A DNA stretch of 64,000 nt from Chloroflexota bacterium (GTDB taxonomy: Bacteria > Chloroflexota > Dehalococcoidia > Lucifugimonadales > UBA2962): positions 24,266-88,265 of the forward strand of contig QGNM01000003.1 in NCBI GenBank assembly GCA_003228095.2, written 5' to 3'. The notes beneath the pieces were generated by a model, which had not been told where the DNA came from, did not search any database, and worked only from the letters and a program-made list of their open reading frames with translations. Made by a program: the position numbers and the translations under genes. Below are positions 34,813 to 36,248 of this stretch, one piece after another; the first letter of the stretch is position 1; each line of letters starts with the position of its first letter.

Positions 34813-34933
34813 TTAATTAATCCCCCAATTTAAATAAAAAAGTTAAACCACATTATACGATTCCTTATGCCAGTTGATGTATCATTACTTTTTTAAATGT
34901 TAGGATTTTTTCAGAAAATGAAAGGTATGTCAG

Positions 34934-35551
34934 ATGTTAAAACTTGAAATTTTCCATGATTACATATGACCGTTTGCTTATAATGCAGCCGTGTGGCTGG
35001 ATCAGGTGAGACGAGATGGGATGGAATTAAGCATCACTTGGAAATCGTTTGTATTAGACGCAAATAAAGATGATGTTGACCATAAGTTGTTTTGGCAATC
35101 ACCAATTGAAGAGCAAGGACGATCCATGTATGCTCATAAAATTGGTAAAGCAGCATTGCGTCAGGGTCAACAGTTATTTGAGCAATTCAATCTACATGTT
35201 TATGTATCTCGACATTCGGGCAAACGGATTCGCCTAGATAAATATGATGAACTTTTAGAAGTGTCGGAGCAATGTGGACTTAGTAAAAAACAACTTTTAT
35301 TAGACCTTGAAGATCCGGATTTGATCTTAGAGATTAAAGAAGATCATGAAGAAGCAGTTGAGCATTATGGTGTTTTTGGCACTCCGACATTCGTATTTGA
35401 AAACGGACAGTCAGTATTTGTAAAAACGTTAATGCCTCCAGAAAAAGATGCCCTTAAAGCTTTTAATGTTTTTCTGGCTCTGTTTGGTGACAGAGATTAT
35501 ATTGGTGAGATAAAACGCCCTCAACCACCTTGGCCGAAAAACGTGAATTAG
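34934..35551 (+). CDS. DsbA/FrnE-like thiol:disulfide oxidoreductase, putative selenoprotein (in-frame TGA at 34967-34969)
   Basis: From ATG 34934 (AAAGG Shine-Dalgarno 8 nt upstream): MLKLEIFHDYI-[TGA]-PFAYNAAVWLDQVRRDGMELSITWKSF... continuous with track ORF 34991-35551. TGA sits at the family's active-site Cys; cis-Pro motif GVFGTPTFVF downstream. Confidence 0.75.
34981..35004 (+). promoter_or_regulatory. Candidate bacterial SECIS-like hairpin
   Basis: CAGCC (34986-34990) GTGT (34991-34994) GGCTG (34995-34999): 5-bp stem with flanking T84-A35001 and A83-T35002 pairs. The first loop base is G, 21 nt after the TGA. Confidence 0.55.
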
Positions 35552-35555
35552 CGTA

Positions 35556-36248
35556 GTGATAAAGAACAATATTAAATTTGATGAAATAGAAGCTAAACTT
35601 GGATTCAACTTTAAAAACCGTGACCTATTAAGAATGGCCTTAACTCATCCCTCTGCTACTAATGAAATGGGCGTTAAACGCAACGAATCGAATCAGAGAA
35701 TGGAATTCTTGGGGGATGCAGTCTTAGATTTGATAATGGCTAATTATCTTTATGAAAAACATGAAGAATGGAATGAAGGAGAATTAACTGTAGAATCGGA
35801 TAAGTTAGTTAATGGAGCTACTTTGGCTAAAATAGCAGCAGAAATTAATTTAGGCCGATATTTAATTCTTGGAAAAGGACTGATATCTCAATCTGGGAGA
35901 GATAACCCTTCAATACTTGCAGCAGCATTTGAAGCGATAGTGGCTGCAGTTTTCATTGAAGGTGGTTATGAAATGGCACATAAGATGGTTGTACAGCTGT
36001 ATAGTAAATATCTTTATGTGCGTGAAGAGGTTGAGAATAGCAAGAAATATTTGCAGGAGTATTTACAAAGCCGAGGCAGCCCTATACCTGAATATAGAAC
36101 AGTCGAGTCTACTGGAAAACCGCATGAGCTAACATTTTTTGTTGAGGTAGTGATAAATGAACAAGTCATGGGGGTTGGTTCCGGATCGAAGAAAATCGAT
36201 GCGGAGCAAGAAGCGGCTAATCATGCACTCAAAGCCTTAAAATATTAG
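35556..36248 (+). CDS. rnc: Ribonuclease III
   Basis: LLRMALTHPSATNE, NQRMEFLGDAVLDLIMANYLYE, C-terminal dsRBD GSGSKKIDAEQEAANHALKAL. Confidence 0.96.
   Translation: MIKNNIKFDEIEAKLGFNFKNRDLLRMALTHPSATNEMGVKRNESNQRMEFLGDAVLDLIMANYLYEKHEEWNEGELTVESDKLVNGATLAKIAAEINLGRYLILGKGLISQSGRDNPSILAAAFEAIVAAVFIEGGYEMAHKMVVQLYSKYLYVREEVENSKKYLQEYLQSRGSPIPEYRTVESTGKPHELTFFVEVVINEQVMGVGSGSKKIDAEQEAANHALKALKY

Follow-up and report, generated by a model that had tools for sequence, protein, structure and literature searches.

The question raised by this locus is whether an in-frame TGA near the start of a DsbA-like gene terminates translation or is read as selenocysteine (Sec). The gene lies within the 64,000-nucleotide stretch of a Chloroflexota genome that we analyzed (hereafter, the window), in which standard ORF calling starts it at GTG 34991, downstream of the TGA. 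From an upstream ATG preceded by a Shine-Dalgarno-like sequence, the same frame runs to its stop with a single internal TGA (Table 1), yielding MLKLEIFHDYI-U-PFAYNAAVWLDQV when TGA is translated as U. The original prediction was built on these elements, all of which are present in the sequence. When Cys is substituted for Sec, the product scores 56.4 bits against the PF01323 DSBA domain (E 4.4e-15; Pfam gathering cut-off, 25.6), and the TGA occupies the catalytic Cys column of this domain. The AlphaFold2 model (mean pLDDT 92.9) places residue 12 just before a helix spanning residues 13 to 27. As had been predicted, translation from GTG 34991, which lies inside the gene at the start of a hairpin loop, would leave this confident fold lacking its first strand and its active site, including residue 12.

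Table 1. Features of the predicted selenoprotein locus, in window coordinates
Feature	Position	Strand	Description
Predicted selenoprotein gene	34934..35551	+	205 residues, Sec at position 12; PF01323 DSBA domain; putative single-Sec DsbA/DR2335-like oxidoreductase
In-frame TGA, codon 12	34967..34969	+	TGA in 49/54 aligned homologous loci, TGC/TGT in 5/54, nothing else
Shine-Dalgarno-like AAAGG	34921..34925	+	8 nt before ATG 34934, read directly
Bacterial SECIS-type hairpin CAGCC-GUGU-GGCUG	34986..34999	+	Apical loop after 21-nt spacer from UGA; stem conservation and codon bias
rnc-like gene (ribonuclease III)	35556..36248	+	ORF; 4 bases downstream of the predicted selenoprotein gene

If the TGA were a true stop or a sequencing error, the locus would be a pseudogene or a gene beginning at GTG 34991; this is the start given by standard ORF calling, and TGA serves as an ordinary stop elsewhere. 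We therefore considered what related sequences, all of them assemblies and mostly metagenome-assembled genomes (MAGs), carry at this codon. The host genome is 1.36 Mb and 78% complete, and the nearest named records are SAR202-cluster or Chloroflexi MAGs. A single-protein query of the genome collection returned only three same-genus-like records. When 98 related genomes were searched, 56 had a match, in most cases one containing a single internal TGA. Among the 54 loci of the order with an alignable active site, codon 12 is TGA in 49, TGT or TGC in 5, and no other codon; one copy from genome G062 is counted twice in this set (L030 and L073) and its other copy is absent, and the duplicate entry is dropped from later counts, giving 48 TGA homologs. 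Genome G062 carries two tandem copies of the gene (L030:539-1174 and 1501-2112), with TGA in both. The restriction of a single column to TGA or Cys codons across these loci indicates that the TGA is not there by chance. Aligning homologs at this column had been proposed as a check on the claim that TGA replaces the active-site Cys, and the column proved to be Sec or Cys throughout. Moreover, 48 further loci from many genomes have TGA at the same column with the frame intact on both sides, which argues against a pseudogene or a read error, just as the loss of strand 1 and the active site argues against a start at GTG 34991. We regard a true stop or sequencing error as close to inconceivable.

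The invariant positions in the protein alignment include D9, U/C12, P13, G149, and P151, and a search of the alignment for other conserved Cys residues found none besides column 12. Val lies three residues after the Sec or Cys in 49 of 54 loci, Sec and Cys forms taken together. The enzyme had been described as UxxA-type, which is correct for the window copy, but UxxA is a local variant in a family that is mostly UxxV. In a phylum-wide search, TGA also appeared in one genome outside the class (G289) and one outside the order (G218), and the other close homologs that we read carry Cys at this column; the second active-site Cys position in the phylum-wide homologs read is Ala, Val, or Thr, never Cys. 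Within the order, Cys forms are found in three families (f34, f9, and f28), and this family distribution, taken by itself, suggests that Sec/Cys exchange happened repeatedly.

Sec insertion in bacteria depends on a hairpin downstream of the UGA, which the published bacterial SECIS model describes as a 4- to 16-bp stem with a 3- to 9-nt loop located 16 to 37 nt after the UGA, a G in the first two loop positions, frequently with G or U next, and a minimum free energy of at most -7.5 kcal/mol (PMC13188914). The hairpin named in the original prediction, with its loop G 21 nt after the TGA, is present and fits this model: it has 5 bp, a GUGU loop, and a 21-nt spacer, and the hairpin region folds at -9.5 kcal/mol, a 48-nt stretch at -16.0 kcal/mol. 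Under our own version of the published model, the stem, loop, and spacing rule is satisfied by 42 of 48 TGA homologs (41 of 48 when the energy limit is also applied) and by none of the five Cys homologs, and by 4.3% of the 2511 TGA triplets that the window contains; six of the 48 TGA homologs miss the strict rule. In a synonymous-codon shuffle of the window gene, five pairs arise in 6.6% of trials. Part of the stem is fixed by the conserved NAAVWL peptide, so that, taken alone, the 5-bp hairpin counts as weak evidence.

It is the comparative signal across homologs, rather than the window hairpin alone, that decides for a SECIS-type element. For the inner stem, 93% of base-pair cells are paired in the 48 TGA homologs versus 48% in the five Cys homologs, so that the proposed check for a conserved hairpin came out in favor of the original prediction, and when control partners are slid by 1 to 3 bases, at most 62% of cells are paired. 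The stem is kept despite changes on one or both sides (e.g., GCGACC..GGTTGC and TCAGTT..GGCTGA). Against synonymous-codon shuffles, the mean z is -2.5 in the TGA homologs compared with -0.5 in the Cys homologs. Codon choice at the hairpin columns is also strongly skewed: Ala6 is GCA in 33/41 (versus 18% elsewhere in these genes), Ala7 is GCC in 34/38, Val8 is GTG in 34/43, Leu10 is CTG in 37/47, and Asp11 is GAT in 21/22. Codon deviations outside the hairpin are weaker, with a largest chi-square of 14 versus 23 to 110 at the hairpin. All of these homolog counts, the geometry counts included, draw on related sequences and do not represent independent events, but at 35 to 50% protein identity synonymous sites are expected to be largely saturated.

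We also observed that the host genome encodes the machinery for Sec insertion. The original prediction had called for a search of the source genome for selA, selB, selC, and selD, and all four were found: SelA (522 bits), SelB (327 bits), SelD (353 bits), and a tRNA-Sec with anticodon TCA. The SelD, SelA, and tRNA-Sec genes share a 35.9-kb contig (G000:C10), where they are not adjacent, and SelB is on contig C21. The catalytic Cys or Sec of SelD typically sits at an N-terminal site, and at the matching position the host selD gene (L074:494-1414, minus strand) has its own in-frame TGA (SSAGUAAK); the host SelD is thus probably a selenoprotein itself. A different possibility is that the TGA at codon 12 is decoded as Cys or Trp, through a suppressor or an altered genetic code, in line with Cys being the alternative residue at the column in five loci. 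However, a dedicated tRNA-Sec(UCA) is encoded in the genome together with SelA, SelB, and SelD; the SECIS-like hairpin accompanies the TGA homologs but not the Cys homologs; and no other window gene was found to be interrupted by TGA, a scan of the window for such genes returning only antisense- or noise-like candidates. Decoding as Cys or Trp thus appears very improbable.

The machinery is nearly universal in the order, with SelA above the cut-off in 84 of 98 genomes. Every one of the 48 TGA-copy genomes has SelA, SelB, or both; SelA above the cut-off is absent from four of them and SelB from one, absences that we attribute to incomplete assemblies. Two Cys-copy genomes of one family (G031 and G060, loci L067 and L068; 97% and 95% complete) have neither SelA nor SelB, and G086, of the same family, keeps both the machinery and the TGA. 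The lack of both proteins differs between Cys-copy and TGA-copy genomes (Fisher P 0.007, relatedness ignored). G031 and G060 thus appear to have lost the Sec trait, with Sec-to-Cys exchange; the other three of the five Cys-copy genomes retain the machinery. From gene structure, Sec/Cys conservation, constraint on the hairpin, and the machinery, we infer that Sec is inserted at codon 12, and we consider it very nearly certain that the gene encodes a selenoprotein.

These results led us to consider what the protein might do. Among solved structures, its closest relative in sequence, profile, and fold comparisons alike is DR2335 of Deinococcus radiodurans: the entries 7dk9 and 7dka, which cover the native and C24S forms, are the best solved Foldseek matches (TM 0.82 to 0.83), and DR2335 is also at the top of phmmer sequence and profile searches of the PDB. 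The Cys replaced in the C24S crystal falls in the Sec column of the alignment. At this column DR2335 has a single-Cys CPYA active site, with Cys in place of Sec. The family shares with DR2335 a single active-site Cys or Sec, the absence of CxxC, and the same fold. A 2022 review notes one conserved Cys in DR_2335 and, as of that date, no experimental function data (PMC8945050), and we found no established function in the literature for the single-Cys/Sec DsbA enzyme type. FrnE (DR0659) and Rv2466c likewise have a DsbA-type fold with a helical insertion, but they have CxxC, and FrnE often a C-terminal CX4C too, whereas the SAR202 family lacks the second Cys. Membership in the CxxC FrnE subfamily was rejected, since the second Cys position is Ala or Val in 54/54 loci. 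The original description of the protein as DsbA/FrnE-like thus holds for the PF01323 DsbA domain, but the nearest relatives are of the single-Cys DR2335 type.

Given a DsbA fold with a single Sec/Cys motif, we think it likely that the enzyme is a mono-selenol thiol oxidoreductase. The protein begins directly at strand 1, with no room for a signal peptide, and is therefore probably cytosolic. In the mechanism we propose, SelB carrying Sec-tRNA-Sec would bind the hairpin just past the UGA at codon 12, and the ribosome at this codon would insert Sec and avoid termination. The product would adopt a DsbA fold, consisting of a thioredoxin fold with a helical insertion, with Sec at the N terminus of helix 1 facing the conserved cis-Pro loop (GTPT). 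The selenolate would attack a disulfide or other oxidized substrate and, with no resolving Cys in the protein, an external thiol would release the selenenyl-sulfide.

The main rival to the oxidoreductase reading is that the selenoprotein acts like a kappa-class glutathione transferase (GSTK) or a 2-hydroxychromene-2-carboxylate (HCCA) isomerase, with the selenol activating or conjugating a small thiol and no disulfide exchange taking place. GSTK and HCCA isomerase have no second active-site Cys and carry Ser at the catalytic position; they thus resemble the SAR202 family in lacking the second Cys, and GSTK1 and HCCA isomerase are among the Foldseek and profile matches. The DsbA-type proteins DR2335, SCO1869, and Rv2466c match better, however, and the catalytic column in the family is Sec or Cys, never Ser. 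We judge such GSTK- or HCCA-like use of the selenol to be unlikely.

DsbA-like selenoproteins had been noted as known from metagenomes, and this is borne out by the literature. Sec-containing DsbA proteins with a UxxC motif were reported in a 2005 marine metagenome study (PMC1088965), and the 2008 Global Ocean Sampling selenoproteome included DsbA 3 (pfam01323, UxxV; five sequences) (PMC2398784). DsbA 3 resembles the SAR202 family in its PF01323 domain, Sec at the first active-site position, and Val three residues on, but it comprises only five marine metagenome sequences, for which we found no organism in the text (PMC2398784). Another catalogue entry, from a 2026 review, is DsbA-like protein form 2 (PF01323, DxxUP, MDP6049977.1) (PMC13188914), whose domain and motif agree with the D-Y-x-U-P of the SAR202 family; it differs in being listed also as a crotonase/enoyl-CoA hydratase family protein, cited to Peng 2016 (PMC13188914). 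By domain and motif, compared by description only, the SAR202 family fits both DsbA form 2 and DsbA 3, with the window copy being UxxA. The NF041057 family (Rcas_1661 thioredoxin-like (seleno)lipoprotein) is another thioredoxin-like selenoprotein family, to which 27 of 47 members of the SAR202 family give weak partial matches; membership was rejected, as the window protein gave no match and the highest score among members scored singly was 23.3 bits, where the cut-off is 190.

Selenoproteins of the PF01323 UxxV/DxxUP type are thus already in published catalogues (PMC2398784, PMC13188914), and of the novelty originally claimed for lineage and motif, the lineage appears to stand but the motif class does not. 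Our search of the open-access literature, with most subscription papers outside it, found no paper tying such selenoproteins to SAR202. What is apparently new is the SAR202 assignment, the order-wide conservation, the conserved rnc linkage, and the repeated Sec/Cys exchange. It is rather doubtful that this is a distinct order-wide SAR202 selenoprotein, separate from DsbA form 2 and DsbA 3, that is a DR2335-type mono-selenol protein located beside rnc and present in a Cys form where the machinery was lost.

The downstream gene, which we take to be rnc from sequence recognition, is probably in the same transcription unit as the selenoprotein gene. Of 30 loci examined across the order, 28 have an rnc-like homolog next to the selenoprotein gene, which suggests an old shared transcription unit but offers no clear hint of function. 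A search of plasmids gave no match.

Standard ORF calling cuts short the window gene and, by the same logic, the whole family. Correct reading gives the SAR202 order, in which Sec machinery is nearly universal, a conserved selenoprotein, which is useful for understanding marine selenium cycling and for the study of Sec-to-Cys exchange, and marks the enzyme type as worth assaying. If the family does prove to be distinct, it would point to an uncharacterized redox reaction that depends on selenium in a lineage abundant in the ocean.
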